Source of the DNA: Candidatus Magnetocorallium paracelense | Lineage (GTDB): Bacteria > Nitrospirota > Thermodesulfovibrionia > Thermodesulfovibrionales > Magnetobacteriaceae | Reading direction: 5' to 3' | NCBI GenBank assembly: GCA_029001845.1 | Contig: JAREWP010000070.1 | Coordinates: forward strand, 1 to 64,000 | Length of the DNA: 64,000 bases | Shown here: one piece after another, positions 3,085 through 48,400 of the stretch | Numbering within the stretch: the stretch's first letter is position 1 | How the letters are laid out: each line of letters starts with the position of its first letter | Notes under the pieces: generated by a model | Database searches by the model: none | What the model saw: the letters and a program-made list of their open reading frames with translations, nothing else | Told to the model about the DNA's origin: nothing | Made by a program: the position numbers and the translations under genes

Positions 3085-3218
3085 CAATGTCATTCACTTA
3101 AGGAGCAAAGCACCATCCGCCTTCAGCGGCTAAACTCGAAGGCTCCGCTTCGCTGCGCCTTCTCAAACATGACCCGCTTCCGTCGGAAGGTGCTTCACCC
3201 CTTAAGTTGATGGTATTG
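3085..3218 (-). mobile_element. MITE family 1, copy A
   Basis: 134-bp element with ends CAATGTCATT.../...ATGGTATTG, inverted relative to the other copies. Its terminal inverted repeats share CTTAAGG and AAGCACC(A/T)TCCG. It is flanked by TACATAAAAAT (3074-3084) and TACATAAAAT (3219-3228), a target duplication of about 10 bp with one A-run difference. It lies 16 bp past the stop of the lytic transglycosylase gene, between that gene and the zapB-zapA pair. The remainder of 2961-3243 shows nothing else. Confidence 0.88.
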
Positions 3219-3243
3219 TACATAAAATAACAAATGTAAGGGG

Positions 3244-5175
3244 TCAATGTCCACTTTGAATATTCATAAGAGTATAAAAACTCAAATCCCTGTCATAATC
3301 ATATATTCTTTTATATTGAAAATACGTTTTCAGCACTCTTTTTACATACTTCCTGGTCTCATAGTAAGGGATATCCTCAATAAACTCATCATCAGAGGTG
3401 TAATTCCCGGAGGCGAGCCACTTTTCCACCTTATGTTCTCCGGCGTTGTACGAAGCAAGAGAGGCAGGTATAGAGTTAAACCGGCCAAGCAGTTCCTTCA
3501 TATAAAAGCCTCCTATGAGAATATTATTTTTTACGTTTATAATATCAAAAATATTGTCAATTTTAATACCTGTTTTTCCTCCGAACGTCCTGGCTGTGGG
3601 AGGGATCAACTGCATAAGACCGGCGGCGCCGGCAGGGGAATATGCATCCTCGTCATAACGGCTCTCTTCACGCATTATTGACAATACCAAAAGCGGGTCT
3701 ACAGAGAATCTGTCATAAACCTCTTTGACCAGGTCTTTGTAAGCATAAGGATAGAGGAGGGTCTTATCTCTCTTGGCAGGAGGTATTCTTTTCAACAGCA
3801 CAATGGATTCATTATAAAGGCCTGCTCTGTTGAGCAACCGACAGGCGCTGAGTATAAGTTCATGATTTCTTTTGCTCAGTTGCCTCATTATATGTCTGCT
3901 CTCGATGGCTACAGCGTCTTTCATATCCAGCCTTAATAATATTGACAGTCTCTTGAGCTTATCGGAGTCCTTATTGTTTTTCATCTCCCTTTGAATAATC
4001 GGAGGAATATGCCTTCCCGACTTTGTTAATGCGAGAAGTGAATAGTAGTTATCCGGGTCAGTAAACCTCTCATACAATGATGAAGCGTCTTGATCGAGTC
4101 TTTCCGATGTTCTGGCGAACCAGTACAAATATCGATTATCACCGTACTTTTTATACAAAGAGTTGAATATTGGAAGCGCCTTTTTGTAGTTCTTGTCGAG
4201 ATAAAAAGCCCAGCCAAGATTCCACATGGCATCTTCTCTTATGGAAGGATCGCTCTTAATTTCCTCCAATATGGTGATTGCAGCTTCCACATTGCCGCTA
4301 CGTCTTAAAAAAAGAGCTTTTTTCAATCTTAAAAACGAGGCTTTAGGATCTTTCTTTTTTATAAGCAAGCCCAGTTTCTCCTCAAATTTCTCTTTTGTTT
4401 CAGGGTAAAGAGACCAGCTCGCTCTGTAAAGGGAGTATGTTTCATAATAGAGGTCTCCCAGTTTATTGTAATGATCGGCTGCTTCATTGTACTTCTTTTG
4501 CTTGAAGAGTGATTTGGCAAGATTCTCCTCGATACTGCGCTTTATTTCGCCCCGAGTCTCTGCAATGATCTCTTTCAGTTCCTTTTCGGCCTTGCTGAAG
4601 AAGTACTGTTTCATCAGATTATTCGATCTTTTATAAATATCGGATACTGTCAGCCCGGCGGGATCGATCTTTTGAAGAGCTTCATCGGAGAATTCCTTCG
4701 CGGAAATATAAATTTTTTTGTATTCCTTAAAAGCACCGGCGCTGTCTCCGGTATCATGAAGAAGATCGGCAAGTATGAGTCGGACGCCGTTGTCATGAGG
4801 ATATTTTGTAAGATATTTTCTGCAAGATTTTATACCCCGCCCGGAATCTATCCTGGAAGCAGTCTCGGCCTCAAGCTTAATGGCTTTGCGTAAAATAGGG
4901 GAGGCAGGATATTCGGCTTTTATTTTTCCAATGTCTGTAAATACATTTTCATGCCGGTCCATGTTACTGAAAGACAGAGCCCTCCAGTACAGAGCATAGT
5001 CACGAAGCAAATGGGAGCCTTTGTTAAAAATATCCAGATTTGAGACAGCATCCTCATAGTTTCCTCTGTCAATGGATTCCTTAGCCCTTTTAAGTAAAAT
5101 ATACGGATCGTCAGATGAAAAAGCAGGAAGCACAGGCAGGAAAAATAAAATCGATATGAAGGCCAGGGTTTTCAT
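3244..5175 (-). CDS. slt: Soluble lytic murein transglycosylase (Slt-type)
   Basis: 643 aa with an N-terminal signal sequence (MKTLAFISILFFLPVLPAFS). A long alpha-helical, TPR-like solenoid (about 25-460) is followed by a C-terminal lysozyme-like catalytic domain. There, SIMREESRYDEDAYSPAGAA holds the catalytic Glu, followed by GLMQLIPPTA and the ASYNAGEHKVEKWL motif. Such enzymes cleave the glycan strand of peptidoglycan, forming 1,6-anhydro-MurNAc ends, in the periplasm. Its ATG immediately follows the mqnD stop codon, so it is co-transcribed with mqnD, hinT and purD. MITE copy A lies 16 bp downstream of its stop. Confidence 0.9.
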   Translation of the reverse strand: MKTLAFISILFFLPVLPAFSSDDPYILLKRAKESIDRGNYEDAVSNLDIFNKGSHLLRDYALYWRALSFSNMDRHENVFTDIGKIKAEYPASPILRKAIKLEAETASRIDSGRGIKSCRKYLTKYPHDNGVRLILADLLHDTGDSAGAFKEYKKIYISAKEFSDEALQKIDPAGLTVSDIYKRSNNLMKQYFFSKAEKELKEIIAETRGEIKRSIEENLAKSLFKQKKYNEAADHYNKLGDLYYETYSLYRASWSLYPETKEKFEEKLGLLIKKKDPKASFLRLKKALFLRRSGNVEAAITILEEIKSDPSIREDAMWNLGWAFYLDKNYKKALPIFNSLYKKYGDNRYLYWFARTSERLDQDASSLYERFTDPDNYYSLLALTKSGRHIPPIIQREMKNNKDSDKLKRLSILLRLDMKDAVAIESRHIMRQLSKRNHELILSACRLLNRAGLYNESIVLLKRIPPAKRDKTLLYPYAYKDLVKEVYDRFSVDPLLVLSIMREESRYDEDAYSPAGAAGLMQLIPPTARTFGGKTGIKIDNIFDIINVKNNILIGGFYMKELLGRFNSIPASLASYNAGEHKVEKWLASGNYTSDDEFIEDIPYYETRKYVKRVLKTYFQYKRIYDYDRDLSFYTLMNIQSGH

Positions 5176-6012
5176 TTATTGAAAAAGCTCTCTTTCTTTT
5201 GCCATTTCAAAAAGCCTGTCAATGGCATTGCTCCCCTCCTCTCCGTAATCGAAGGTGAAGTCGTTTACATAAAGGTTTATATGACTGTCTATTACGCCAT
5301 TATTTAATTCTCTGGCGTATTCTTTAATGTATTTCTTTGTCTCATCTCTGTTTTTATAGGCAAAGTCAATGGATTCTCTCAGGAGATTTTCAACAAAGTC
5401 GGAAAGTTCCTCTCCAAGTTCATTTTTCATAATTATGCATCCAAGGGGTATGGGCAAACCTGTCTTACTCTCCCACCATGCACCGAGATCGATGACCTCT
5501 TTAAGACCATATTCATGATAAGTAAACCGGCTCTCGTGTATAATCACGCCGGCGTCGACTTCTCCTTTTTGTACGGAAGTCATTATTTTGTAAAAAGGCA
5601 TACTAACGATATTGCTCTTTCTCTTTAATGCCGGTTCGAAGAGCCGAAGCAGCAGGCATGCCGTTGTGTAAAAGCCTGGAACGGCAATTTTTATGCTCTT
5701 CAGGTCTTCCGGTTCCAATCCCTTGGAAGTTATGATAAGAGGGCCGCAACCTCTGCCAAGAGCGCCGCCGCTTTTTAGCAGCCGATATCGATCTCTGAGA
5801 TACCCGAACGTATGAAAAGAAACCTTTGTTATGTCGGGAATTCCTTTTAAGGCAAGGTTGTTCAGCTCTTCGACATCCCTGATCGTCGGCTCAAACTCAA
5901 GAGGGCCTGTATCGATCCTTTTATTAATCAGAGCATAAAATATAAAAGTGTCATTCGGACAGGGCGAGAATCCCAGGGTGAGTTTATGCGTTGGCTTTAT
6001 CCCGGAGGCCAT
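5176..6012 (-). CDS. mqnD: 1,4-dihydroxy-6-naphthoate synthase MqnD (futalosine pathway)
   Basis: 278 aa with a periplasmic-binding-protein-like fold. The N-terminal signature LGFSPCPNDTFIFYALINKR is characteristic of MqnD and distinguishes it from MqnA. GALGRGCGPLIIT and the later VIIHESRFTYHEYGL are also family-like. MqnD converts cyclic dehypoxanthine futalosine to 1,4-dihydroxy-6-naphthoate, a late step in the futalosine route to menaquinone, which implies menaquinone-based respiration. The assigned ATG lies inside the 3' end of hinT (16-bp overlap in another frame). No other mqn genes are in the window. Confidence 0.9.
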   Translation of the reverse strand: MASGIKPTHKLTLGFSPCPNDTFIFYALINKRIDTGPLEFEPTIRDVEELNNLALKGIPDITKVSFHTFGYLRDRYRLLKSGGALGRGCGPLIITSKGLEPEDLKSIKIAVPGFYTTACLLLRLFEPALKRKSNIVSMPFYKIMTSVQKGEVDAGVIIHESRFTYHEYGLKEVIDLGAWWESKTGLPIPLGCIIMKNELGEELSDFVENLLRESIDFAYKNRDETKKYIKEYARELNNGVIDSHINLYVNDFTFDYGEEGSNAIDRLFEMAKERELFQ

Positions 6013-6338
6013 CTCATCGGTCTGCCGCCCAATATGTGGAGATGGATATGGAAAACTGTCTGGCCGGCTTCTTTGTTGCAGTTCATAACAAGCCTGAAAC
6101 CCCTTTCGGCAATATTATTTTCCAGGGCGATCTTGTTCGCCGCAGCATAGAGACTGCCGATAAGCCGAAAATCTTCTTCTTTTATATCCAAGGAAGTTGA
6201 TATGTGCTTTTTAGGTATCACCAGGACATGAAGCGGAGCCTGAGGATTGATGTCTTCAAAGGCAAGAATCATATCATCTTCATAAACTATCTTTGAGGCG
6301 ATCTGCTTATTAACAATTTTACAAAAAAGACAATCCAT
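5997..6338 (-). CDS. HIT-family nucleotide phosphoramidase (HinT-like)
   Basis: 113 aa, complete for the family. The histidine-triad motif is visible at the C-terminus as HIHLHILGGRPM, and the N-terminus CLFCKIVNKQIASKIVYED is classical for HinT/PKCI proteins. Members hydrolyse nucleoside 5'-phosphoramidates such as AMP-lysine. It starts 12 bp after purD and overlaps mqnD, so it is part of one transcription unit. The C-terminus (RWPPG) is short, as is usual in bacterial HinT. Confidence 0.9.
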   Translation of the reverse strand: MDCLFCKIVNKQIASKIVYEDDMILAFEDINPQAPLHVLVIPKKHISTSLDIKEEDFRLIGSLYAAANKIALENNIAERGFRLVMNCNKEAGQTVFHIHLHILGGRPMRWPPG

Positions 6339-6350
6339 AACAACCTCTCT

Positions 6351-7619
6351 TTACAATGCTCTGTGAGCGATATCTTTTCTATAATACATACCATCAAAAC
6401 GGATATTGTTTATGACTTCGTAAACCTTATCCCTGGCTTCTCTCACACTTTCTCCCAGGGCCGTTACTCCCATAACCCTTCCCCCCGATGAAGTGACATT
6501 GCCGCTGTCGCCAAAGGACGTTCCCGAATGAAAGACATAAACGTCATCATCTGATTTGAAAGAATCGAGTCCACTTATCTCCTTTCCTTTTTCATAATCT
6601 CCCGGGTACCCCTCGGAAGCCAGGACAACACAAACAGAAGCATTTTTTTTCCACTTTATCTCGATCCTGTCAAGTTTTTCTTCCTCAATAGCCAATAGAA
6701 TATCCATAAAATCGCTGTCCAGTCTCATTAATACAGGTTGTGTCTCAGGATCTCCGAATCTGCAGTTATACTCCAGCACGTAAGGTTTGCCATCGCTTAT
6801 CATTAGGCCTGCGTATAAAAATCCTTTATATTTGATCCCCTCTTTTTTCAGTCCCCTGACAGTAGGTTCGATTATAGTCTCCATGATTACATTTTCAAGT
6901 TCGGTAGTGACTATCGGCGCAGGGCTGTATGCCCCCATTCCCCCTGTATTGGGCCCTTTGTCACCGTCGTAAACTCTCTTGTGATCCTGAGAACTTACCA
7001 TCGGGAGAATCGTTGTTCCGTCCGTAAAGGCCATAAACGAAGCCTCTTCCCCGACGAGACACTCTTCTATGATAACCCTGTCTCCGGCGCTTCCAAAAGC
7101 CTTTTTCTTCATAATAAGATCAATAGCATCCATAGCCTCTTTAACGTCGACTGCAACGATAACGCCCTTTCCCGCAGCCAGACCGTCCGCCTTGATTACA
7201 ACGGGTGCGCCTTTTAAACGTACATGTTCCTCAGCATGAATGGGAGAGGTGAAAGTTCTGTACTCGGCAGTAGGTATGCCGTGTCTTTTCATGAATTCCT
7301 TGGCAAAGACCTTGCTCGCCTCCAGTTGAGCGGCTTTTTTCAAAGGTCCTGTAATCTTGAGTCCCTCCTTTTCAAAGGCGTCTGCAATGCCCTTTGCAAG
7401 AGGAGCTTCAGGGCCGACGACAGTGACATCGATCCACTCATATTTTACGAGATTAATGATCGATTCGAAATCGTCCGGTGCTATATCGATACACTCGGCA
7501 AGCTCGGCAATGCCTGCGTTACCGGGGCAACAGTATACCTTGTCTGCCTTTTTGCTCATTGCAATCGCCCGAACAAGGGCATGCTCTCTCCCGCCACTGC
7601 CTATGACAAGTACTTTCAT
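6351..7619 (-). CDS. purD: Phosphoribosylamine-glycine ligase PurD
   Basis: 422 aa, the standard length for GAR synthetase. N-terminal domain MKVLVIGSGGREHALVRAIA; ATP-grasp core with VIKADGLAAGKGVIVA, EECLVGEEASFMAFTDG and the signature HKRVYDGDKGPNTGGMGAYS; and a metal/ATP site YVLEYNCRFGDPETQ. It catalyses ATP-dependent joining of phosphoribosylamine and glycine, the second step of de novo purine synthesis. First gene of the purD-hinT-mqnD-slt unit. No Shine-Dalgarno is evident; a possible -10 lies only 7 bp upstream of the ATG. Confidence 0.95.
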   Translation of the reverse strand: MKVLVIGSGGREHALVRAIAMSKKADKVYCCPGNAGIAELAECIDIAPDDFESIINLVKYEWIDVTVVGPEAPLAKGIADAFEKEGLKITGPLKKAAQLEASKVFAKEFMKRHGIPTAEYRTFTSPIHAEEHVRLKGAPVVIKADGLAAGKGVIVAVDVKEAMDAIDLIMKKKAFGSAGDRVIIEECLVGEEASFMAFTDGTTILPMVSSQDHKRVYDGDKGPNTGGMGAYSPAPIVTTELENVIMETIIEPTVRGLKKEGIKYKGFLYAGLMISDGKPYVLEYNCRFGDPETQPVLMRLDSDFMDILLAIEEEKLDRIEIKWKKNASVCVVLASEGYPGDYEKGKEISGLDSFKSDDDVYVFHSGTSFGDSGNVTSSGGRVMGVTALGESVREARDKVYEVINNIRFDGMYYRKDIAHRAL

Positions 7620-7626
7620 GGCAAAT

Positions 7627-7657
7627 AGTATAAACTAAAGAATGACTATTTTTCCAA
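7627..7657 (-). promoter_or_regulatory. Possible promoter of purD placing the start at or near the ATG
   Basis: On the minus strand TTGGAA (7652-7657) and TATACT (7627-7632) are separated by 19 bp. The -10 ends 7 bp before the purD ATG and no ribosome binding site intervenes, so transcripts may be leaderless. The spacer is longer than ideal, so support is modest. Confidence 0.35.
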
Positions 7658-7704
7658 TCACCTGAAAAATCTCGCTATTCTTCTTCTACATCACAGTTGA
7701 TTTC

Positions 7705-7713
7705 TGCTATAAT
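7705..7713 (+). promoter_or_regulatory. Extended -10 promoter for the sulfotransferase-HDOD pair
   Basis: TGCTATAAT is a perfect extended -10 element (TG at 7705-7706, TATAAT 7708-7713), with a weak TCTACA -35 about 17 bp upstream. It lies 43 bp before the assigned start of the plus-strand gene at 7757. Confidence 0.55.
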
Positions 7714-7756
7714 TTACAGAATCTGTCGCTGCTAATCGGGCAAAGGAAAAGGATTC

Positions 7757-8389: not shown

Positions 8390-8392
8390 AAA

Positions 8393-9970: not shown

Positions 9971-10316
9971 AAAAGTGGCTTGTAACAGTGGCCGGCGATC
10001 AGTTGCACAGCTTCTCTTCCAACAATTTTCTCTATACTATTTTCCGACCTCTCTTTGCTTTTATCACGAAAACAGATGACTTCTTAATGTCCCTTCTTAT
10101 GCCTTGTGCCTGTTGCCTGAATAGTGATTAATATAAAGAGTCGCTGTAGTATTAAAGTAGTATAGTAATATTATAAGCACTGTTTGATCGTTCGTATTTA
10201 CAACTATCATTAAAATTCACTAAACTATAGACGTATCTCTCCTGTTATTTTAATAAATGTAAGAGTAAGAAACTCTCTTTTACTATTTTCATGCTTTGTG
10301 GTGACTCGGAGATTCT
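9971..10316. other. Intergenic region with repeat family 4 copy
   Basis: Between the HDOD-GAF and radical SAM genes. It holds TCTTATGCCTTGTGCCTG at 10095-10112 and GTCGCTGTAGTATTA at 10140-10154, both shared in the same order with 63119-63174. No open frame or RNA gene was recognised in the rest. Confidence 0.55.
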
Positions 10317-12256: not shown

Positions 12257-15200
12257 TTGTTACAGGGACATTACGTAATAATTACGGGGTTTTTTTACTT
12301 GTTACTACTGTTTTTCGTCGCTTTTTATGCCGAAAAAAGGGCTAAAAGAGGTCGGAGCCTCATAAAGAACCCCTATATTTACTCCCTCTCAATAGCAGTA
12401 TACTGCACAGCCTGGACATTCTACGGGAGTGTGGAAAGAGCGGCAACTTCAGGGCTTAATTTTCTTTCCGTATATATCGGCCCTACAATTATGGCTTTTT
12501 TATGGACCATTGTACTGCGCAAAATAATTCGAATCAGCAAAAACCAAAGAATCACATCTATTGCAGACTTTATTTCATCCCGTTACGGAAAAAGCCTGCT
12601 CTTGGGCGGACTGGTTACTATTATTTCGCTGGTAGGAATAATGCCTTACATCTCTTTGCAACTGAAAGCGGTAGCAGTCAGTCTGAATGTGCTCATGCAG
12701 TATCCTGACATAAAAACGATTACGACAGCAGCCCCTATTCTGTCTGACTCGGCCTTTTATGTTGCAGGCGTCATGGCCCTGTTTACGATACTATTCGGCA
12801 CACGTTATCTGGACGCTTTTGAAAGACATGAAGGAATGGTAGCGGCTGTTGCTTTTGAATCTCTGGTGAAACTTGTCGCATTTCTGCTTGTAGGCTTATC
12901 TGTCACTTACGGAATATACAACGGTTTTGGCGATATTTTTAACAAGGCGAAATCTGTCCCTCATTTGCAACAACTTTTCACCTTTAAGAGTGGTGATTTC
13001 AACGACTGGTTCTGGATAATTTTTATGTCCTCTATGGCGATTATGTTTCTTCCGAGACAATTTCAGGTGATGGTTGTCGAAAATACAGATGAGAACCATG
13101 TGGAAAAGGCGACGTGGATATTTCCATTTTATATACTTCTAATCAACTTATTTGTTTTACCCATAGCATTTGGGGGCATGCTTCATTTCTCCGACGGCAG
13201 CGTCCGGCCGGACACATTTGTACTCACCCTGCCGATGTCTCGTCAGTGGGAGTTCATAACCCTTGTCGCCTTTATCGGTGGTCTTTCTGCCGCGACAAGC
13301 ATGGTTATGGTAACGACAATATCCATTAGTACGATGATAAGCAACAATCTGATCTTACCTTTTTTAATGCAGGTCCCTTTTATCGATATAAAGGGTAAAA
13401 AGGAGATGAACAGGTTTACCCTGAGAATCAGACGCATTTCAATTATCGCAATTATGCTTTTAGGTTATCTGAGTTTTCGTCTGATAGGAGAATCGTATGC
13501 ACTTGTTACAATCGGACTCATGTCCTTTGCCGCGGCTGCTCAGTTTGCACCATCCATTATCGGCGGAATATTCTGGAAACAGGGAAACAAGCTTGGCGCA
13601 CTGGTCGGGCTGGCAGGCGGATTCGCGCTCTGGCTTTACACAATGTTTCTTCCTGCATTGGCCAAATCCGGTTGGCTGCCTGCAAGTTTTATCGAATCAG
13701 GCCCTTTCGGAATCACCCTGCTGAATCCCTACAGCTTATTCGGGGTCAAAGGAATGAGCTGGATATCTCACGGCATGTTCTGGAGTATATTAGTCAATCT
13801 TGGCGCCTATATAACAATTTCCGTGTTTACACGGCATGGAAGTACTTTGGAACAAACACAGGCCGCCCTCTTTACAGGAGGTTTTCAACATGAAACCAAA
13901 GAAGCGTCCTGGAGCGGTGATTACTCGCTGAACGATCTGCAAAAACTTTTGACTCGTTTTATGGGCCAAAGGGAAATGGAAAAAGCCTTTGCAGAGTATA
14001 CAAATATAAATAATATTCCCTTGCATGCCGACCCGGAACTTGCCGGTTACATGGAAAAACGTCTGGCAGGCGCCATAGGCACATCATCGGCGAGAATCAT
14101 GATTTCATCCATAGTGAGCGAATCCGTCGTGGGAATGGAAGAGATCATAAAAGCGCTTGATGACGAGTTAATGGAGAGCCGTCGTTTAAAAGAAGAGATA
14201 CATAAACGCAAAGCCGCCGAAGAACAACTGCTTAGTCAGACCAATAAGCTTACCAGATTGAAGCTCCGCCATGAATTAATTTTAAACTCAGCCGGCGACG
14301 GCATTTACGGAGTGGATTTGGAAGGACGCACAACCTTTATAAATCCCGCAGCCGTTAAACTGATAGGGTGGGGTTCCGAAGATATGATCGGTAAATTGCA
14401 GCACGATGTAATACATCACACGCGACCTGACGGTTCTGTCTATCCTGCTGAGGAGTGTCCTGTTTACAGGACTTTTAAAGAAGATAAGGCCTTTCATGTA
14501 GATGACGAAGTGTTCTGGAGAAAGGACAGAACGAGTTTTCCCGTTGAATATGTAAGCACCCCCATGCATGACGATAAGGAGCAATTAGTCGGAGCAGTTG
14601 TCGTATTTAAAGATATAAGCGAACGAAAAGAGATGGAGCAGCGTCTTTGCGAGCTGGCCCATTATGACATCCTGACGGGACTCCCCAACAGAATGCTTTT
14701 TTATGAAATGCTCGATCAGGCAATTGAGATGGCCGGGAGGAACGGTCTTATTTTAGGGATCATGTTTATAGACCTGGACAGATTTAAATATATAAACGAC
14801 ACGCTGGGTCATGATACAGGGGATTTGCTGTTAAAAGAAGTGGGGGCAAGATTTGAAGAAATCCTGCGTCAATCCGATACAGTCGCAAGAAATTCATTGG
14901 CCCGTATCGGAGGCGATGAGTTCCTGATACTTCTCCACAATCTGGTTAAAGCGCAAAACGCAGCTGTCGTAGCAAAGAAAATCATTTCCTCCTTAATAAA
15001 ACCTTTTAATATAAAGGGCAATGAGTGCTTTATCGGCGCCAGCGTGGGAGTCAGCATATATCCTTTTGACGGTGAAACCCCGGAGGTTCTTATAAAACAT
15101 GCCGATTCCGCCATGTATCAGGCAAAATATGCATCAGGCAACTCCTATCAATTCTATTCAGAGGAAATAGAAACAGCAGCATGTGAGCGTTTAGCGATTG

Positions 15201-15982
15201 AAAACGATTTACGGCACGCCATAGACAAAAATGAATTCATACTCTATTACCAACCTGTTGTAGATGTCATGACCGGCAAAACAATAAGCGCTGAGGCTCT
15301 GATCCGTTGGAAAAGAAATGGAGAAATCGTCCCACCCGATGTATTCATCCCTGTGGCAGAGGAGACAGGACTAATCCTTTACATAGGAGAGTGGGTGCTG
15401 AAACAGGCATGTCATGATATCAGGAAGTGGCGCGAAGAGGGGTTTCTTGAAATACATGTTGCAGTAAATATGTCTATGTGTCAGTTTGGCAGGCAGAAAA
15501 ACCTTGTGGAAGGAATAGCTCAAATCATATTCGAGGCCGACATAAAACCTGAATACCTTGAACTGGAAATCACCGAGTCAGCCTGTATGGAAAATATAAC
15601 ATCCCTCATTCCCATACTGAGAGAATTAAATTCTACGGGAATAAAACTATCGATAGACGATTTCGGAACAGGTTACTCATCTCTGAGCTACCTCAAATAT
15701 CTTCCCATAGGTAAATTAAAAATTGACCGATCTTTCATAAAAGATATCATTGAAGGCGAAGACGATCAGGCCATAGTAAAGGCAATGACCGGTATGGCGC
15801 ATACACTTGGGCTAAAAGCTGTGGCCGAAGGAGTCGAGACATTGGATCACTTGGAAATTTCACGTTCTCTGGGTTGTGATTATGTGCAGGGTTACTTATT
15901 CAGCAAACCTGTACCTGAGGCAGAATTTTTAACATATCTCAGAGATGAAGTAGGGGCTGTTAATTCAATACCATTAACTTAA
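12257..15982 (+). CDS. Na+/solute symporter (SLC5)-STAC-PAS-GGDEF-EAL fusion
   Basis: 1241 aa. Residues 1-~520 are a multi-helix sodium/solute symporter domain (SIAVYCTAWTFYGSVERA; FLPRQFQVMVVENTD; ALVTIGLMSFAAAAQFAPSI). About 550-635 resembles the STAC linker domain of CbrA-type sensors (LNDLQKLLTRFMGQREMEKA, MEKRLAGAIGTSSARIMISS). PAS is about 675-800, GGDEF about 805-975 with an intact GGDEF motif near 885, and EAL about 985-1235. EAL catalytic motifs look intact: AEALIRW, LEITESA, IDDFGTGYSSLSYL, KIDRSFI, AEGVET. It may both make and degrade cyclic-di-GMP in response to a transported or sensed solute. TTG start with AGGAG six bases upstream. The last residues, SIPLT, come from MITE copy B. 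Confidence 0.9.
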   Translation: MLQGHYVIITGFFYLLLLFFVAFYAEKRAKRGRSLIKNPYIYSLSIAVYCTAWTFYGSVERAATSGLNFLSVYIGPTIMAFLWTIVLRKIIRISKNQRITSIADFISSRYGKSLLLGGLVTIISLVGIMPYISLQLKAVAVSLNVLMQYPDIKTITTAAPILSDSAFYVAGVMALFTILFGTRYLDAFERHEGMVAAVAFESLVKLVAFLLVGLSVTYGIYNGFGDIFNKAKSVPHLQQLFTFKSGDFNDWFWIIFMSSMAIMFLPRQFQVMVVENTDENHVEKATWIFPFYILLINLFVLPIAFGGMLHFSDGSVRPDTFVLTLPMSRQWEFITLVAFIGGLSAATSMVMVTTISISTMISNNLILPFLMQVPFIDIKGKKEMNRFTLRIRRISIIAIMLLGYLSFRLIGESYALVTIGLMSFAAAAQFAPSIIGGIFWKQGNKLGALVGLAGGFALWLYTMFLPALAKSGWLPASFIESGPFGITLLNPYSLFGVKGMSWISHGMFWSILVNLGAYITISVFTRHGSTLEQTQAALFTGGFQHETKEASWSGDYSLNDLQKLLTRFMGQREMEKAFAEYTNINNIPLHADPELAGYMEKRLAGAIGTSSARIMISSIVSESVVGMEEIIKALDDELMESRRLKEEIHKRKAAEEQLLSQTNKLTRLKLRHELILNSAGDGIYGVDLEGRTTFINPAAVKLIGWGSEDMIGKLQHDVIHHTRPDGSVYPAEECPVYRTFKEDKAFHVDDEVFWRKDRTSFPVEYVSTPMHDDKEQLVGAVVVFKDISERKEMEQRLCELAHYDILTGLPNRMLFYEMLDQAIEMAGRNGLILGIMFIDLDRFKYINDTLGHDTGDLLLKEVGARFEEILRQSDTVARNSLARIGGDEFLILLHNLVKAQNAAVVAKKIISSLIKPFNIKGNECFIGASVGVSIYPFDGETPEVLIKHADSAMYQAKYASGNSYQFYSEEIETAACERLAIENDLRHAIDKNEFILYYQPVVDVMTGKTISAEALIRWKRNGEIVPPDVFIPVAEETGLILYIGEWVLKQACHDIRKWREEGFLEIHVAVNMSMCQFGRQKNLVEGIAQIIFEADIKPEYLELEITESACMENITSLIPILRELNSTGIKLSIDDFGTGYSSLSYLKYLPIGKLKIDRSFIKDIIEGEDDQAIVKAMTGMAHTLGLKAVAEGVETLDHLEISRSLGCDYVQGYLFSKPVPEAEFLTYLRDEVGAVNSIPLT

Positions 15983-16099
15983 GGGGTGAAGCACCTTCCG
16001 ACGTAAGCGGGTCATGTTTGAGAAGGCGCAGCGAAGCGAAGCCTTCGAGTTTAGCCGGTGAAGGCGGAAGGTGCTTTGCTCCTTAAGTTAATGACATTG
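15967..16099 (+). mobile_element. MITE family 1, copy B (overlaps the end of the GGDEF-EAL gene)
   Basis: 133 bp, from CAATACC to GACATTG. Both ends carry CATTAACTTAAGG and AAGCACCTTCCG in inverted orientation. It is flanked by the perfect 10-bp direct repeat GCTGTTAATT (15957-15966 and 16100-16109). Removing the element and one repeat restores a reading GTT AAT TGA, i.e. an ancestral stop codon, so the insertion replaced the natural end of the upstream protein. Confidence 0.93.
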
Positions 16100-16152
16100 G
16101 CTGTTAATTGACGAGTAATATGTTTGGTTTACCTGTGGCTCAACCCGGAAAA

Positions 16153-17445
16153 TTATGAAAATACTCTCTTAAACAAAAGGTCGATATTTTTCAGATAATC
16201 GTTTATATCAAAAATGACGTCAATCTCATCGGAAGTCAGATGTTTCGTAACATCTGGGTCAGACATTAATAATGACTTAAAAGCCACTCCCCTTTCCCAA
16301 CTCTCCATTGCATTCCTTTGTGTAATCGCATAGGCGTCCTCTCTTGACAATCCTTTTTCGGTGAGTCCGGTAAGGACTTTTTGAGAATAAAAGAGTCCGT
16401 GACTTCTTTCCAAATTCACTTTCATATTCTCCGGATAAACTCGAAGCGACGCCAGTATCCCTTTCAATCTGTTGAGCATATAATCTGTTAATATGGTGCT
16501 GTCAGGCACAATGACCCTCTCCACAGAGGAATGGCTGATATCTCTCTCATGCCAGAGAGCAATATTTTCCAGCGCGGCCAGGGAATTCGATCTTACGACT
16601 CTGGCCAGACCGGACAAATTTTCGCAACCGATGGGATTTCTTTTATGAGGCATTGCAGAGGAGCCTTTCTGACCTTTGGAAAAAGGTTCTTCCGCTTCAC
16701 GCACTTCCGTCCTCTGTAAATGTCTGATCTCCACAGAAATACGCTCAATAGAGCCGCCCAGTACGGCCAGAGCAGTCATATATTCGGCATGTCTGTCTCG
16801 TTGGACAATTTGAGTTGAAACCGGCTCCGCCTTTAAACCGAGTTTTTCACAAACCTTATCTTCCATTTCAGGGGGAACGATGGAAAAGGTCCCCACTGCA
16901 CCGGAAAGCTTGCCTACATTTATAGTCTCCCTGGCCCGCTGTACTCTGTCAAGATTCCTCTTCATCTCTTCATACCAAAGAGCGAATTTCAAACCAAAAG
17001 TCATCGGCTCGGCATGAACACCGTGACTCCTCCCGATGCAGGGAACATCTTTGTATTTGAAGGCCTGCTTCTTTAAAACATCCATAAGTTCCTGAATATC
17101 CCCGATAATGATATCGGCAGCGTCTCTCATAAGAAGGGCCATGGCTGTATCTGTTACATCGGAAGAGGTAAGCCCTTTATGGATATATCTCGATTCACTG
17201 CCGGTAAATTCGGCGACTGACGTTAAAAACGCGATCACATCATGTTTTACGGTTGCCTCTATTTCGTCTATCCTTTTCACATCAAAAGAGGCCCTCTCTT
17301 TTATAATATTCAGAGCGTCCAAAGGAATTTCCCCAAGCTCCGCCCATGCTTCACAGGCAGCGATTTCCACATCGAGCCATTTACGAAATTTCGCTTCAAG
17401 ACTCCAAAGTGCGCCCATCTCTTTTCTTGTATATCTCTCTATCAT
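16153..17445 (-). CDS. purB: Adenylosuccinate lyase PurB
   Basis: 430 aa, standard for the bacterial short PurB. Family signature SSAMPHKRNPIGCENLSGLA is present, as are SRYIHKGLTSSDVTDTAMAL (catalytic TSSD region) and GRSHGVHAEPMTFGLKFALW. The enzyme acts twice in purine synthesis, splitting SAICAR and adenylosuccinate with fumarate release. TAAGGAG lies a few bases before the ATG. It is not linked to purD (9 kb away). Confidence 0.95.
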   Translation of the reverse strand: MIERYTRKEMGALWSLEAKFRKWLDVEIAACEAWAELGEIPLDALNIIKERASFDVKRIDEIEATVKHDVIAFLTSVAEFTGSESRYIHKGLTSSDVTDTAMALLMRDAADIIIGDIQELMDVLKKQAFKYKDVPCIGRSHGVHAEPMTFGLKFALWYEEMKRNLDRVQRARETINVGKLSGAVGTFSIVPPEMEDKVCEKLGLKAEPVSTQIVQRDRHAEYMTALAVLGGSIERISVEIRHLQRTEVREAEEPFSKGQKGSSAMPHKRNPIGCENLSGLARVVRSNSLAALENIALWHERDISHSSVERVIVPDSTILTDYMLNRLKGILASLRVYPENMKVNLERSHGLFYSQKVLTGLTEKGLSREDAYAITQRNAMESWERGVAFKSLLMSDPDVTKHLTSDEIDVIFDINDYLKNIDLLFKRVFS

Positions 17446-17507
17446 GGTAACTCCTTATTTATAAGTATTGGTCAAATGTAATTTCTGTGGTAATTATATA
17501 TTCTTAT

Positions 17508-17687
17508 CTATAGATGGTTTGTAACTACTTCGGTGTATATACCTTCCTCTTTTAAGACACTTCTGATAAAGTCAATTTTTACCTCCAAGACATTGGTGAT
17601 GTTTTCAGGCTGCATTTTGGCTTTTTTGTACAACTTTATTATCGACTCTCTCATTGTTTTATTTACACCTTCCTCCATCCCTCTTTC
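17508..17687 (-). pseudogene. C-terminal remnant of an Rpn/PD-(D/E)XK-type transposase-like protein
   Basis: About 59 codons remain, reading ERGMEEGVNKTMRESIIKLY and ending GIYTEVVTNHL. The GMEEG.. helix followed by a short LKEEG(I) tail is characteristic of the C-termini of Rpn-family (PD-(D/E)XK nuclease) proteins. The reading frame breaks off exactly where MITE copy C begins, and no matching N-terminal part is seen beyond it. A still shorter echo of the same tail (YTKVVTK) occurs at about 28090-28113. Confidence 0.5.
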
Positions 17688-17815
17688 CAATCACTTAAGG
17701 GGTAAAGCACCTCCCGACGGAAGCAGGTCATGTTTGAGAAGGCGCAGCGAAGCGGAGCCTTCGAGTTTAGCAGGTGAAGGCGGATAGTGCTTTGCTCCTT
17801 GAGTGAATGACAGTG
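17688..17815 (+). mobile_element. MITE family 1, copy C (degenerate ends)
   Basis: 128 bp. The core (GTCATGTTTGAGAAGGCGCA and following) is near identical to other copies, but the left end lacks about six bases (CAATCACTT instead of CAATACCATTAACTT). The right end reads GAATGACAGTG. No clear target duplication is visible, consistent with an older insertion. It truncates the adjoining Rpn-like remnant. Confidence 0.8.
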
Positions 17816-30316: not shown

Positions 30317-30345
30317 CTAAATTCTTTGCAGGCTTGGTGTTAAAA

Positions 30346-30798
30346 ATGAAAGTACAAGAGACAGCAGCAGGATTCAAAAATTTTATAAAGAATTTCATCA
30401 GATTCATTGCCTCGGAAATCCTTCCCGTGACTCCCGATGTTAGAGACGGGATATTACCTCCATGCAGGATTTGGCCAAATTGTGTTTCAAGTATGGCTTC
30501 CGGCCGGCTACATTATATAGAACCGACCTATTACAACATATCTTTATCTGAAGCTGTTAAAAAGGTAAAGGATGTCCTTACATCGATTGACAGGGCCGAA
30601 ATAATAGCTGAAAGGGATGATTATCTCCACTTTGAAATAAGAAGTTTCGTTGCCGGCTTTATCGACAATCTCGAGTTTTATTTCGATGACACAAAAAAGG
30701 TGCTTCACTACAGATCGGCTGCCCGTAGCGGGTTCTATGACTTTGGCGTTAACAGGAGGCGATTGAAAAGGATAAAAGCCGATCTGATTGGATGGTGA
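30346..30798 (+). CDS. DUF1499-family protein
   Basis: About 150 aa from the ATG at 30346; TTG at 30334 is an alternative. The family core is visible: LPPCRIWPNCVSSMA (the PNCVSS motif), a middle VKDVLTSIDRAEIIAERDDY, and the C-terminal block YHYRSAARSG-like LHYRSAARSGFYDFGVNRRR. Function unknown; no signal peptide is evident. It follows the TonB-like gene by about 30 bp and may be co-transcribed. Its stop codon lies inside the 10-bp target duplicated by MITE copy D. Confidence 0.8.
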   Translation: MKVQETAAGFKNFIKNFIRFIASEILPVTPDVRDGILPPCRIWPNCVSSMASGRLHYIEPTYYNISLSEAVKKVKDVLTSIDRAEIIAERDDYLHFEIRSFVAGFIDNLEFYFDDTKKVLHYRSAARSGFYDFGVNRRRLKRIKADLIGW

Positions 30799-30800
30799 CT

Positions 30801-30934
30801 CAATACCATAAACTTAAGGGGTAAAGCACCTTCCGACGGAAGCGGGTCATGTTTGAGAAGGCGCAGCGAAGCGGAGCCTTCGAGTTTAGCCGCTGAAGGC
30901 GGAAGGTGCTTTGCTCCTTAAGTTAATGACATTG
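30801..30934 (+). mobile_element. MITE family 1, copy D
   Basis: 134 bp, CAATACC to GACATTG, near identical to copies B and E. It is flanked by the perfect direct repeat GATGGTGACT (30791-30800 and 30935-30944), which contains the stop codon of the DUF1499 gene. A 4-bp ATTG shared by the element end extends the apparent identity to 14 bp. Confidence 0.93.
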
Positions 30935-31056
30935 GATGGTGACTTACAGAGTGTCGTTGCCGGAAGTAATTTTTTTTTAAAAAAAACTAAAGTTTTAAAA
31001 AAAAGAGCCGATAAGGAATTAGTTACCTTTTCTCATGTGGTGACAGGGAGGTAAAA

Positions 31057-39851: not shown

Positions 39852-39900
39852 AAAAAAAGCATTTAGCTGTCGGCTCTTTAATTGCAACACTTTATGTTCA
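39852..39900 (+). repeat. Repeat family 2, truncated copy c
   Basis: Only the left ~49 bp remain (AAAAAAAGCATTTAGCTGTC ... GCAACACTTTATG). The sequence then diverges. Confidence 0.65.
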
Positions 39901-40009
39901 CCGGAATGGCGACTGTTAGACATCCATAAGCCAGGTTATCAAAAATTGTGCCTGAAAAAATGGAATCCTATTATTATACTTCTTCAGGTTCTTTTGGAGC
40001 CGCTCAACT

Positions 40010-43780: not shown

Positions 43781-43839
43781 AAAAAATAGTTGTAACAGTT
43801 TGCCAGCAAAGGAGATTTAGACGGGATTAACATTCATCT

Positions 43840-43998
43840 AAAAAAAGCATTTAGCTGTCAGCCTTCAGCTATCAGCCTTTTAATTACAAAGCTTTGCCGT
43901 TTAAAACTCTTTCACCCTTAAGGTGACGCTTATTATTAGCGCAATATCGGTATTTTCCTTAGCTGAAGGCTGATCGCTGATAGCTGACTGCTGTTTTT
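43840..43998 (+). repeat. Repeat family 2, copy d
   Basis: 159 bp, AAAAAAAGCATTTAGCTGTC to GCTGACTGCTGTTTTT, with TTCACCCTTAAGGTGACGCT in the middle. Upstream of the AAC(3)-aminopeptidase gene. Confidence 0.8.
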
Positions 43999-44020
43999 AG
44001 TTCATAACTTTTCGAGTCAA

Positions 44021-44170
44021 AACAAAGCATGAAAAATTAACGGTACAAACCACTGTGAGAGTCACCTGCCCACAGGTGACCTCAACGGTTCGTTTACAGG
44101 TTGCCGCCGGTGGTCACCCCTAGGCGGGTAACTCCCACATGTAGCGGCCAAAGACTTGTTTTCGGGATAA
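44021..44170 (+). repeat. Family 3-like element with a different core
   Basis: Left edge ACAAAGCATGAAAAATTAA and right edge TTTTCGGGATAAAA resemble family 3, but the core is GC-rich with hairpins GTCACCTG/CAGGTGAC (44058-44077) and shows no CTTCGTGGT arms. No convincing gene overlaps it. Confidence 0.45.
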
Positions 44171-44293
44171 AAAAGGGCTCCATTCACAAGTAATGATAAT
44201 TTTATTATTACGGTAAATGCAGCCGGGGAGTATAGAGAACAGTGGTTATTCAACTTGTCTTTATCAGGTAAGAGGTCATTCAGGTGACAATCT

Positions 44294-44671
44294 CTACATA
44301 GATGTGAATTGAATAATTCTATTAATCATTTCTATATGATTTACTTCCAGTTCCAAAAACTCAAAACCTATTCGGGTCATGGTAATGCTCATGGTCTGAT
44401 TGTTTTTAGCGATAGCTTTTAAACTCAGGCATCCATTACTTTCCAAGCCGTTTATTAAATTTAAATCGACAACTATCTCTACTTCTTTTAAAACGGAAAT
44501 GGAAAATCTGCTTTTAATTCCACAACCCTTTTCGCTGAGATCTATCAACATACCCGGGAGACCTTCGGCAGTATTGTATAAACCCGATATGTTTACGGAA
44601 TCTTTGGTTTTTATTGTTACAGGTATATTTATCGGACATCTTTCAGCATTTCTAACAACCCATCTGCTCAT
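44294..44671 (-). CDS. PilZ-domain protein (cyclic-di-GMP receptor)
   Basis: 125 aa single PilZ domain. Both binding motifs are present: RxxxR in VVRNAERCPINIPV and (D/N)xSxxG in MLIDLSEKGCGI. Thus it probably binds cyclic-di-GMP, made or degraded by proteins such as the GGDEF-EAL fusion at 12257. AAAGGAG precedes the ATG. Target process is unknown; pili and exopolysaccharide genes are encoded in the same window. Confidence 0.85.
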   Translation of the reverse strand: MSRWVVRNAERCPINIPVTIKTKDSVNISGLYNTAEGLPGMLIDLSEKGCGIKSRFSISVLKEVEIVVDLNLINGLESNGCLSLKAIAKNNQTMSITMTRIGFEFLELEVNHIEMINRIIQFTSM

Positions 44672-44712
44672 TTTACACTCCTTTTACAAGTTATGTAAAT
44701 CGGTTTAACGAA

Positions 44713-44810
44713 CCTGAGTCGGCGAAACCGCCAAAAAATCGTAATATGCGAATCTGATTTTAACTTTGTACAGCCGGCGATGCATAACCTTTTACGGAAG
44801 CTGACTCAGA
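44713..44810 (-). ncRNA. Candidate structured 5' leader of the PilZ gene
   Basis: On the minus strand CTGAGTC (44803-44809) can pair with GACTCAG (44714-44720), closing a ~96-nt unit that contains a GGCGGTTTCGCC hairpin (44721-44732) next to the closing stem. It ends 42 nt before the PilZ start codon. No known riboswitch consensus was recognised (not a clear GEMM motif). Structure by eye only. Confidence 0.3.
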
Positions 44811-45000
44811 TACGGACACAACTTGGGAGATATTACTATATAAAAAAACTATTCTCCCCGCGCCTGAGGATGAAAAAGAGTATAAATGATACATAAAACA
44901 GCACCTTAAAGTCAATAGAATCAATGCAGGTAATGGGGGAATGGCCTTTGCGTTATCAATATCATTAAGGCAAACGAAGTAAAGTTTCTATAAAAAACAA

Positions 45001-45594
45001 TCACATGGAGATAAGAAAAAGTTGAAAACAGCCTATTATGAAACCCAGCATAGCTCCCCAAAGCTCTATAGCCTTGAGTTCCCTTGATGCGATGGAGAGG
45101 ATTATCTCCTCGAGTTTGATAAAATCAAAATCCGATATCTTTTGATAGACGATCTCTTTAATATTCAGGCCCTTTTCAATAATCTCTTCGATCCGGTTAC
45201 TGATAGACGGTATCATCGAGAGTATTTCATTGACAAGAACCTCCTTGATGGACTCCTTAATCTCCCCATTAACGAATGAAGCGATCATCGGGTTAAACGA
45301 AAACAGTCGTTTTTCAATAAAGTCATCGATTTTTCGTGAAATCAAACTCCTGAAATCATCTCCGGCCCCGCCGCCAAAGGCTTTTGTAATGTCTTCTGCA
45401 TTAAACAGATGGACCTCTACGGTTTCGGCTATTCTCATGGCAAGCTTATCTTTTCTTTTAGGAATGAGCCCCTGAATGGAAACAGGGCCCAACCTGAATT
45501 CCTTGTGAGGTCTGAACAACATTCTTATAGCAATGTAATTGGTGAGCCACCCGATAAGGGAGCTTATAATTGGAATAAACCAGATAATTTCCAT
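45001..45594 (-). CDS. DUF445-family membrane protein
   Basis: 197 aa. The N-terminus IPIISSLIGWLTNYIAIRML followed by FRPHKEFRLGPVSIQGLIPK is the hallmark of DUF445 (YheB/YqgA-like) proteins. A helical middle and a C-terminal membrane helix (WGAMLGFIIGCFQLFLIS) follow. Topology places most of the chain on one side between two terminal helices. Function unknown. The 329-bp gap to the PilZ gene holds the candidate leader above. Confidence 0.85.
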   Translation of the reverse strand: MEIIWFIPIISSLIGWLTNYIAIRMLFRPHKEFRLGPVSIQGLIPKRKDKLAMRIAETVEVHLFNAEDITKAFGGGAGDDFRSLISRKIDDFIEKRLFSFNPMIASFVNGEIKESIKEVLVNEILSMIPSISNRIEEIIEKGLNIKEIVYQKISDFDFIKLEEIILSIASRELKAIELWGAMLGFIIGCFQLFLISM

Positions 45595-45961
45595 AATTCT
45601 CCTTGTAAGAAAAAAATTGTGCGTAAATAGTGGAATATTACATTTAAATCTTGTTAACTGACTATTGAGTCAGGTCAGGGGATGAACAGCAAACATCTTT
45701 TTAACATCACGATTCATGATTTCAATGAAAATCATAAAAACGGAGTTGGAAACTTACAAACAGGATATATTACTTAATCACAGGTAAAGTAATCAATATG
45801 GGATGAAAAAAACTCGTCCGGGATTTTGGAATGATATAAATAAGCTCACCTAAAAGTGATATGCCGGTTATTATGCGAAACGTTGAAAACAGAGGGCTAA
45901 CAGCTGATAGCTGTTTTAGGGTTATAAGTTTAACATTACTCACAGAATGCTAATCCATCTA
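45595..45961. other. Intergenic region with a decayed family 2 fragment
   Basis: No gene. Around 45838-45925 an inverted, decayed family 2 relic is suggested by AATAAGCTCACCT (compare AATAAGCTTCACCT on the minus strand of intact copies) and GCTGATAGCTGTTTTAG. Confidence 0.35.
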
Positions 45962-47128
45962 CTATTTCATGAAAACTCTTACTTCCGGATCTTGTTTTAA
46001 AATCTCCCTTTCCTGTTTAGAAGCGACGCGTTCGATGTAATGACCTTTTAACCATTTATTAATCAGTCCGCCGTTCGATACAGCTCTTTCGTATAAGTTT
46101 GTTACCACGTTAGGTCGAACAATTCCTGTATCGGGATTGTCAACGATAATGGCAACAGAACGATCCATCTTTTCCTTGGAATCGCTTAAATAAAAAAAAT
46201 TACTCAACTTAAGCTCTTTTGCCATCAACTCCGTTTTTAACTCGCGAACCAACGGGAGACAAGGAATACCGGCCATTGCACAAAAAATCAGCATATGCAT
46301 ACGCATAGTAATAATGATTTTGCATTTTTGTAACTCCTCGATCAACAAAAAAGGATTTACATAATTACAAAAGGTGATTCCATTTAACTGTGTGTTTATA
46401 ACCTTGGACGTTAGAGCGTAATCGAATACCGGATCTTTTCTCACTTCGTTACAAATACCTTTAAAACTGTATTCATTACTGTATTCCAAAAGCGTGGAGG
46501 CGACTTTATCGGGATAATCGAATTTTTTTTCCTGATTTTCGCTTACAAGATTAAGTCCGATAGTAGAACTATCGCCGGTCTTTCCTTTTTTCCCTATTAA
46601 CTTATAAATGGCAAAAGCTCCGTCTGCTGTGACTACAATCTGTTCAGGATCGAATCCCAAAGCAATACACTTATCGTAATCCCGTTTTGAACGTAACGAT
46701 ACGATCTCCAAATAACGGATAAAGTTGTTTCTTATTAAAGCGACAGCCTCATTCGAAACGATGTCGCTAACACCCACGCCCACCGCGGCAACCGGTTTTT
46801 TATGCAACTTAGCAAGTTTAATAATTGTACAACAATACTTTATTGGATAATCAAGAACCGGCCGTTCCGAAATAAGGCTTGCTCCGCCAAGCACCACATG
46901 GGTAGCCCACTTAATTCCTTTGATAAGACCCTCGTTATCGAACTGCCAAAATTCATTCATATCCACCATACTCCTCGTAAATGATGGAGAAAAAGAGACA
47001 ACTCCTGTTTCGCAGTCAACACTATTCAGTCTTAAAGACTCATGCAATCCCAAAAGAATTGCATCATCTCCAATGTTGCCGGCTCCGTATCCTGTAGCAC
47101 AAAATAAAATTCTTGGTTTATCGGACAT
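45962..47128 (-). CDS. Polysaccharide pyruvyl transferase-family protein
   Basis: 388 aa. N-terminal ILFCATGYGAGNIGDDAILL is the classical start of WcaK/CsaB-type pyruvyl transferases, with VVLGGASLISERPVLDYPIK and C-terminal CKIIITMRMHMLIFCAMAGI followed by PCLPL. The family adds ketal pyruvate to sugars of capsules, exopolysaccharides or cell-wall polymers. AAAGGAG lies a few bases before ATG. Adjacent to a propeller protein on the same strand. Confidence 0.87.
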   Translation of the reverse strand: MSDKPRILFCATGYGAGNIGDDAILLGLHESLRLNSVDCETGVVSFSPSFTRSMVDMNEFWQFDNEGLIKGIKWATHVVLGGASLISERPVLDYPIKYCCTIIKLAKLHKKPVAAVGVGVSDIVSNEAVALIRNNFIRYLEIVSLRSKRDYDKCIALGFDPEQIVVTADGAFAIYKLIGKKGKTGDSSTIGLNLVSENQEKKFDYPDKVASTLLEYSNEYSFKGICNEVRKDPVFDYALTSKVINTQLNGITFCNYVNPFLLIEELQKCKIIITMRMHMLIFCAMAGIPCLPLVRELKTELMAKELKLSNFFYLSDSKEKMDRSVAIIVDNPDTGIVRPNVVTNLYERAVSNGGLINKWLKGHYIERVASKQEREILKQDPEVRVFMK

Positions 47129-47202
47129 TCTTCTCCTTTCAGACGACTACTCAAGTGAATAGCATGGAAACTGCGGACTATAAGATAAAACAGATAATCC
47201 CG

Positions 47203-47228
47203 AAAAAGCATTTAGATGACTGCTGTTT
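47203..47228 (+). repeat. Repeat family 2, deletion relic f
   Basis: AAAAAGCATTTAG joined directly to ATGACTGCTGTTT: the two ends of family 2 without the centre, as left by an internal deletion. Confidence 0.55.
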
Positions 47229-47237
47229 GAAAGATAA

Positions 47238-48215
47238 CTACTCTGCAATAATTGAAAACACAGAAGAACAAAGATTATTATTTAACATAAAGCACTTCTC
47301 CACTTGTCGAGTTTTTATGTTGACCCGGAGAATAGAGGCAGGTGAAATACCCAAAAGCACATGACTGTCATCAAGAACGCACAGGCCGCGTAACCAATTT
47401 AGACGGCAGCTTCGTTCGGCAATCAACTTATTTAGAAACGGTAATTTATGTAGCCTGTTAGAAATCTTTTGAGTAAAAGGAACTCTAATTGATTTCTGCT
47501 CGTCAGCGGACAAATGGTCCAGTATATCTACCTTAACAACGGATAGCAAGTCAGTATTTTTGTTAAACACCTTTAATTCACAATTTCCCGTGTCGTTTAT
47601 AAAATATAAATTATTCGCTAAACAAGCGTCATGTATTTCTCTGCCTTTAGAATGGACAACAGGTTTATCTTCACTGATATTCCAGAGTACACCCTGTTTA
47701 TGTAACGAAAGAAAGACACCGGCTTCCGTTTCCTGGACATAATTTACATGAAAAATCTGTTCTTCAATGGGTATCATTGTTCTTCTAAAGTCATAATCCT
47801 TATTAACTCTTCTTATCGGTTTTTTGACAAATTCCATTAATGCCGGGTTTTCACTTAGGAATATTTCCTCAATTAACTCTCCATTTTTCGTAAAACATAA
47901 AATACAGTCATTACTACAAGAGCTAACCCACAGCCTGTCCCCATAAACGCTTAAACCATGAACACCGCATAGATGAGGATGTGAAAATCGACTTATCTCT
48001 TTAAGGGATTTATCGAAAAAACGAATTTCGCTAAAAGTACCTGTAACTATACGTTCTCCCCAAAAATCCATTCCCAACGGTCCGCCGTGTACAGCTGTAT
48101 CGTTATTGCTGTACACTTTTACCTGCTTTTCAATTAACCATTTATCTAAACGAAGCTTATAAATCCAGCCGTAAGGTTTATATCTGATTATCGAAGTTAT
48201 ATATGCAGTGGTCAT
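47238..48215 (-). CDS. Cytoplasmic beta-propeller-like protein
   Basis: 325 aa, no signal peptide. Blade-like repeats: GGPLGMDFWGERIVTGTFSE, HLCGVHGLSVYGDRLWVSSC, EIHDACLANNLYFINDTGNC, NWLRGLCVLDDSHVLLGISP followed by ASILRVN. Such spacing of W/H-G-L..D/W...S fits a six-bladed propeller of the NHL/DUF4915 kind sometimes seen with glycan or sulfation genes. No catalytic residues can be assigned. Downstream partner in the same direction is the pyruvyl transferase gene; the gap between them holds the family 2 relic. Confidence 0.6.
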   Translation of the reverse strand: MTTAYITSIIRYKPYGWIYKLRLDKWLIEKQVKVYSNNDTAVHGGPLGMDFWGERIVTGTFSEIRFFDKSLKEISRFSHPHLCGVHGLSVYGDRLWVSSCSNDCILCFTKNGELIEEIFLSENPALMEFVKKPIRRVNKDYDFRRTMIPIEEQIFHVNYVQETEAGVFLSLHKQGVLWNISEDKPVVHSKGREIHDACLANNLYFINDTGNCELKVFNKNTDLLSVVKVDILDHLSADEQKSIRVPFTQKISNRLHKLPFLNKLIAERSCRLNWLRGLCVLDDSHVLLGISPASILRVNIKTRQVEKCFMLNNNLCSSVFSIIAE

Positions 48216-48266
48216 TCTACTATTAAGCCATCATTACTCAAAAGGGTAAATCTACAGGTTAACAAT

Positions 48267-48400
48267 CAATACCATTAACTTAAGGTGTGAAGCACCTTCC
48301 GACGTAAGCGGGTCGTGTTTGAGAAGGCGCAGCGAAGCGGAGCCTTCGAGTTTAGCCGCTGAAGGCGGATGGTGCTTTGCTCCTTAAGTTAATGACATTG
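48267..48400 (+). mobile_element. MITE family 1, copy E
   Basis: 134 bp, CAATACC to GACATTG. Flanks GGTTAACAAT (48257-48266) and GGTTATAAAT (48401-48410) match at 8 of 10 positions, a slightly decayed target duplication. Lies upstream of the propeller gene start. Confidence 0.9.

Follow-up and report, generated by a model that had tools for sequence, protein, structure and literature searches.

The 64,000-nucleotide stretch of Candidatus Magnetocorallium paracelense DNA analysed here (GenBank assembly GCA_029001845.1, contig JAREWP010000070.1, positions 1 to 64,000 of the forward strand; hereafter the window) contains five copies of a short repeat which is, with little doubt, a non-autonomous transposable element of the IS4 family, that is, a miniature inverted-repeat transposable element (MITE). 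The family can be named because full IS4-family insertion sequences (IS) carry the same 18-bp ends, four of the six such elements being flanked by duplications of 9-10 bp. The kind of element is already known; the evidence supports well that this is an IS4-type MITE family which is ageing, not demonstrably recent, and without a visible helper. The element is 134 bp long in four of the five window copies, has no coding capacity and has ends that are complementary over about 35 bp; an Rfam scan of the window at the gathering threshold gave no match. An earlier note on this DNA had announced five copies, and all five were found. Its positions hold for four of them, the exception being copy 2, which starts at 15966 instead of 15967 and is 134 bp long; the duplications that it described for four copies are present as given, two of them exact. 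The features are as follows:

3085..3218, minus strand: MITE copy 1, 134 bp; flanking repeats identical except for one extra T
15966..16099, plus strand: MITE copy 2, 134 bp; exact 10-bp duplication GCTGTTAATT
15956..15965, plus strand: left target duplication GCTGTTAATT
16100..16109, plus strand: right target duplication GCTGTTAATT
17688..17815, plus strand: MITE copy 3, 128 bp; 6 bp missing at the left end, no duplication
30801..30934, plus strand: MITE copy 4, 134 bp; exact 10-bp duplication GATGGTGACT
30791..30800, plus strand: left target duplication GATGGTGACT
30935..30944, plus strand: right target duplication GATGGTGACT
48267..48400, plus strand: MITE copy 5, 134 bp; duplication matching at 8 of 10 positions

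Spread, target duplications and IS4-type ends

The earlier note called for a genome-wide search for further copies. In the host assembly (6.0 Mb in 103 contigs, 99.6% complete), a 27-bp core of the element matches 185 sites with up to three mismatches (reversed control 0), and the 18-bp end matches 351 sites with up to two (control 0); by arithmetic (185 x 134 bp / 6.0 Mb), the MITE makes up roughly 0.4% of the host genome. The 134-bp sequence has no match in the 18 other genomes of the host's family, several of which are incomplete (56-92%), and a blastn search (E 0.01) with the interior of the element (positions 25-110) found nothing in 132 loci of other genomes (L086-L217). As far as the compared genomes show, the burst is therefore private to the host lineage, and the conservation of boundaries in distant relatives by which the earlier note would have recognized a static repeat is not seen. 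With at most one mismatch allowed, five of the 18 other family genomes contain the 18-bp end alone, at between 1 and 13 sites per genome, and 41 genomes of the wider order lack it.

Target duplications were counted in 158 distinct end-bounded elements of the host, drawn from 775,624 bases (with overlaps) centred on known copies; this set is not a random sample of the genome and includes a few likely chance pairs (390, 256 and 152 bp). A 10-bp duplication is exact in 74 of the 158 elements and has at most one mismatch in 117, where 200 shuffles of the right flanks reached maxima of 3 and 4, respectively; the note had regarded a lack of such repeats around most copies as the mark of a static repeat. 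Lengths of 4-8 bp stay at background level, 9 bp gives no exact case and two with one mismatch (shuffled maximum 1), 11 bp gives three exact cases and 12-15 bp none. The 129 sites at which 8 or more of the 10 duplication bases agree reveal a symmetric, AT-rich target: outside the duplication, T is found at -5 in 58% and at -4 in 67% of the sites, and A at +4 in 78% and at +5 in 77%; within it, position 1 is A in 67% and position 10 is T in 78%. Such a symmetric target would be the choice expected from two transposase subunits acting on the two strands.

The 18-bp ends are CAATACCATTAACTTAAG on the left and CAATGTCATTAACTTAAG on the right. In a genome of the same family as the host (G015), two exact 18-bp ends bound a 1459-bp element (L089, the same as L093) with an open frame of 438 aa, the product of which scores 183 bits with the NCBIfam IS4 model (transpos_IS4_1, cut-off 115), matches Pfam DDE_Tnp_1 and displays a YREK motif and the residues D128-D203-E312; its motif, DDE spacing and size are those of the IS4 family (De Palmenaer et al. 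2008, PMC2266710). Six full-length elements with good ends are available in all (L089, L117, L135, L158, L160 and L171). A long intact frame is found only in L089, L135 (YREK; D128 D209 E320; 143 bits for transpos_IS4_1) and L171 (YREK; D134 D214 E327; 146 bits), and these three transposases all have YREK and the spacing D(60-110)D(100-150)E; L117, L158 and L160 have interrupted or short frames, and with 113 and 86 bits, L158 and L160 fall below the IS4 cut-off. The aligned transposases with these ends are divergent (26-30% identical to the first sequence). Duplications are exact over 10 bp at L160 and over 9 bp at L117 and L171, and match at 9 of 10 positions at L135. Duplications of about 10 bp are typical of the IS4 family (PMC2266710), and Table 1 of the same source gives the ends -AATR--------WTW---- and repeats of 10-13 bp for subgroup IS4, and the ends CA------T and repeats of 8-10 bp for subgroup IS4Sa. 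The ends of the MITE and its 10-bp duplications fit both subgroups, with 9-bp cases elsewhere; unlike the IS4-family elements, the window element measures 134 bp and contains no transposase. The LepA protein encoded in the window is 75% identical to that of Nitrospirae bacterium nDJH13bin3, the genome carrying L158, and at most 63% identical to those of 24 other named genomes; we take the host to belong to Nitrospirota.

The same end reaches well beyond this family. The exact 18-bp end CTTAAGTTAATGACATTG is present in at least 113 stretches of the species-genome collection, where about 7-8 would be expected by chance in 257 billion random bases (arithmetic), and the titles of these stretches name Bacillota, Bacteroidota, Desulfobacterales, Pseudomonadota and Nitrospirae. 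Among the matches listed, 44 of 113 have an inverted partner (up to four mismatches) within 2.2 kb, delimiting 39 elements of 77-534 bp and 5 of 1.4-1.7 kb; another 45 have no partner, their end lying within 200 bp of the edge of the stretch. A 10-bp duplication with at most one mismatch flanks 14 of these 44 pairs (9 exact; shuffled maximum 3) and a 9-bp duplication flanks 9 (6 exact; shuffled maximum 2); the foreign end-bounded elements show duplications less clearly than the host copies. Palindromic flanks around some exact-end elements (e.g. L171, L138, L126) hint at insertion into terminator-like hairpins. A separate MITE set is present in a genome of a related genus within the host's family (G006), consisting of 219-267-bp elements with the same ends and a different interior (L087, L092, L095, L102, L104), two of the five with clear 10-bp duplications.

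Isolated ends and wider end pairs in the host were considered as traces of full elements. Most of the 12 distinct entries with an unpaired end (L225 being the same as L285) have the MITE body adjoining that end, and only a short piece of it adjoins at L070 and L272; with MITE body mostly beside the end, a reading of these ends as remnants of a full IS was rejected. At L223 (1129-1146) and L299 (1227-1244), the 18-bp end stands alone, neither a MITE body nor a partner being close by. Thirteen end pairs 0.9-2.5 kb apart in host loci were taken as neighbouring MITEs instead of full IS; in the window and in L071, L074 and L075 they correspond to known MITE copies. Copies 2 and 3 (15966-17815), which have the same orientation, flank an adenylosuccinate lyase gene (16153-17445, minus strand) in a composite-like arrangement.

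The putative helper transposase and the age of the burst

The ends CAATACCATTAACTTAAG and CAATGTCATTAACTTAAG would represent the sites at which an IS4-family DDE transposase binds and cleaves. Supplied in trans, this enzyme would excise the 134-bp element and paste it with a 10-bp stagger into AT-rich, roughly palindromic intergenic targets; repair would turn the stagger into the 10-bp duplications, and the element would have spread in this way to at least 185 copies in one lineage before ageing. An IS4-family enzyme probably mobilized the element in trans; we infer this mobilization, the cut-and-paste route and the loss (or non-assembly) of the helper. The proposal of the earlier note that a DDE transposase moved the MITE in trans is supported, with IS4 as the enzyme family, but the helper was not found in the host assembly. 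Several observations weigh against our interpretation. The MITE and the compared full elements have only their ends in common. The G015 element, which has the ends of the full IS that the note recommended looking for, is, like L158, without a visible duplication. Finally, the note was right that the window holds no transposase with such ends, and protein and profile searches found none in the host assembly either.

With the G015 protein as a query, nothing was recovered from the host assembly, nor with a four-sequence profile at E up to 10; as a positive control, this profile at E up to 0.001 matches 7 of 19 family genomes, the host not being among the seven. The host has three matches to the IS4 family model, all below its cut-off, and each was rejected as the helper: an IS1380 transposase, a distant 725-aa protein, and a broken IS4-like fragment (L065, G000:C70:2832-3365; 103 bits) which lacks these ends, is of a different lineage from the G015 enzyme and is not meaningfully similar to it (best E 0.59). 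Five DDE_Tnp_1 loci of the host, among them one IS1380 and one interrupted IS1634, were also discarded, no such ends (up to four mismatches) being found in the 2.9-3.7 kb searched at each.

The age of the burst was estimated on 109 copies; 17 of the 126 rows of 134 bp were dropped, those with a divergence below 12% and at least 7 of 10 duplication bases being kept, a filter which itself trims the tail of the mismatch distribution. Private divergence from the consensus averages 2.2%, and the two copies of the duplication differ at 6.2% of positions, or about 3.1% each. Duplications with 0, 1, 2 and 3 mismatches number 60, 34, 11 and 4, where a single-rate binomial predicts 57.2, 38.1, 11.4 and 2.0, and mismatch is not significantly correlated with divergence (rho 0.13, p 0.19), as expected of one age class. 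Duplication and copy divergence thus fit a single ageing burst. In a single ageing set, about one duplication in two should still be exact; exact duplications are therefore no sign of recent movement, and the recent activity that the earlier note read from two exact duplications does not follow: at 6.2%, the single-rate fit makes such cases expected.

This estimate also bears on whether an IS4 element is still present and active in the host and has merely been collapsed or omitted in the draft assembly. Multi-copy IS elements often break short-read assemblies, the present one is in 103 contigs, and profile-matched transposases do exist in 7 of 19 family genomes. However, not even a fragment was detected by protein search or by the profile at E up to 10, the three matches to the IS4 model are all below the cut-off, the IS4-like one among them being broken and without these ends, and the age of the burst requires no current helper. 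We consider an unassembled, active helper unlikely, though worth keeping in mind, and prefer an ageing family mobilized in the past.

Hairpin arms and size forms

The 134-bp strand folds into one long hairpin (stability z -9.8), and the two arms of this hairpin have changed together. In 123 copies (3 of the 126 rows of 134 bp, with 40-62 differences from the consensus, were dropped), the 45 paired arm positions show 28 double changes against 11.75 expected, and 28 of 28 are complementary. There is no excess of double changes when the partner is shifted by 1-3 positions, and shuffled right arms give a mean of 8.3 complementary doubles, with a maximum of 17 in 1000. We lean towards an explanation in which one arm was corrected on the other during replication, by quasipalindrome template switching, a process described in PMC7202029 and PMC8604942. 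A competing account, which we rate somewhat lower but take seriously, is that the covariation stems from a few master copies and recombination between copies instead of correction in place. The polymorphic sites occur in many combinations, so that recombination or recurrent mutation is present; moreover, 39T is found in 47% of the 11C/124G copies but in 14% of the 11A/124T copies, and the excess becomes modest without pairs 11/124 and 28/107 (7 doubles, where shuffles average 2.6 and attain 7 in 13 of 1000 cases), all of which agree with master copies. Against them, no two of the 15 copies with 11C/124G share a haplotype at 11 other polymorphic sites, single-sided states at 11/124 are also common (11 and 6 copies), and every one of the 28 double changes is complementary.

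Shorter forms of the element can be derived from the 134-bp form by deletion between short repeats: loss of 29 bp between GAAGCGG repeats (39 and 68) gives the 105-bp form, loss of 85 bp between GGTG repeats (20 and 105) the 49-bp form, and loss of 87 bp between either AAGG (16 and 103) or CCTT (29 and 116) repeats the 47-bp forms. Since there are two deletion types for 47 bp in addition to the 49-bp form, recurrent slippage in place is likely. The commonest 47-bp form occupies seven genome sites (up to three mismatches), three of them identical; five of the seven have 8-10 of 10 duplication bases (the three identical copies and two one-base variants) and the other two have 4 and 6. Most 47-bp forms have GTC at both ends, whereas the 134-bp element has ACC on the left. 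The 47-bp forms are either a distinct transposing subfamily or the product of slippage and arm correction. More speculatively, and in our opinion with the odds against it, the whole swarm may be a record of hairpin-driven mutation, in which the arms have repeatedly corrected each other and some copies are now mobile 47-bp near-perfect palindromes; a substrate made up of two 18-bp ends separated by about 11 bp would then be near the smallest conceivable for cut-and-paste transposition.

Gene context, known relatives and significance

The MITE copies avoid genes. When empty sites were reconstituted by joining the flanks and open reading frames (ORFs) of 100 codons or more were counted in every frame, 23 of 141 elements fell inside one; of random positions in these loci, 1845 of 2284 did so. 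With non-overlapping ORFs only, 11 of 140 sites are within an ORF, 68 in tandem gaps, 50 in divergent and 9 in convergent ones, and 2 are unplaced; over the window and 20 loci, tandem gaps account for 29,910 intergenic bases, divergent gaps for 12,592 and convergent gaps for 5,826. In the window, copy 2 provides the GGDEF/EAL gene at 12257-15982 with a new stop codon, adding 5 residues (the empty site would read AAT TGA), and copy 4 is inserted 2 bp past the stop codon of the ORF at 30334-30798.

Intergenic placement, a very stable hairpin (z -9.8) and arm covariation are also what a static or selected hairpin repeat, REP- or ERIC-like and retained because it serves the host, for example in termination or mRNA stability, might show. 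We nevertheless hold this explanation to be highly improbable, in view of the exact 10-bp duplications at many sites, the absence of the repeat from the 18 other family genomes and the sharing of its ends with IS4 elements; in addition, conservation among the present copies does not favour the ends over the interior (divergence of 2.8% against 2.1%). The host may make secondary use of the repeat.

The MIC231 mobile insertion cassettes of Bacillus cereus are reportedly non-autonomous and bounded by the ends of IS231, a member of the IS4 family; in these respects the present element resembles them, but the cassettes are said to carry passenger genes, whereas the 134-bp element has no coding capacity. 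The ends also differ, those of IS231 beginning with CAT (Table 1, PMC2266710) and those of the MITE with CAAT. Chunjie, QMITE1, QMITE2 and ERIC are similar in being short hairpins with terminal repeats and duplications, in tens to hundreds of copies, with size variants and a mostly intergenic location (PMC10969869). The text of this review of bacterial MITEs contains neither the term 'IS4' nor 'IS231', and offers no IS4-derived MITE for comparison. A literature search by end sequence (four spellings) retrieved no paper; judged by titles alone, a search on IS4-family MITEs gave none on this element, and searches on small MITEs, Tn5 length limits and quasipalindromes gave no direct precedent among the titles.

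The 18-bp end can be used as a probe for this group of transposases, as it is found on divergent IS4 transposases and on many MITE-sized elements in several phyla. Studies of quasipalindrome mutation have relied mostly on reporter genes; should arm correction be confirmed, the aligned copies would constitute a natural data set on this process. The enzyme family behind the host repeat can be named, and the most interesting part of its history lies in the hairpin-driven changes.

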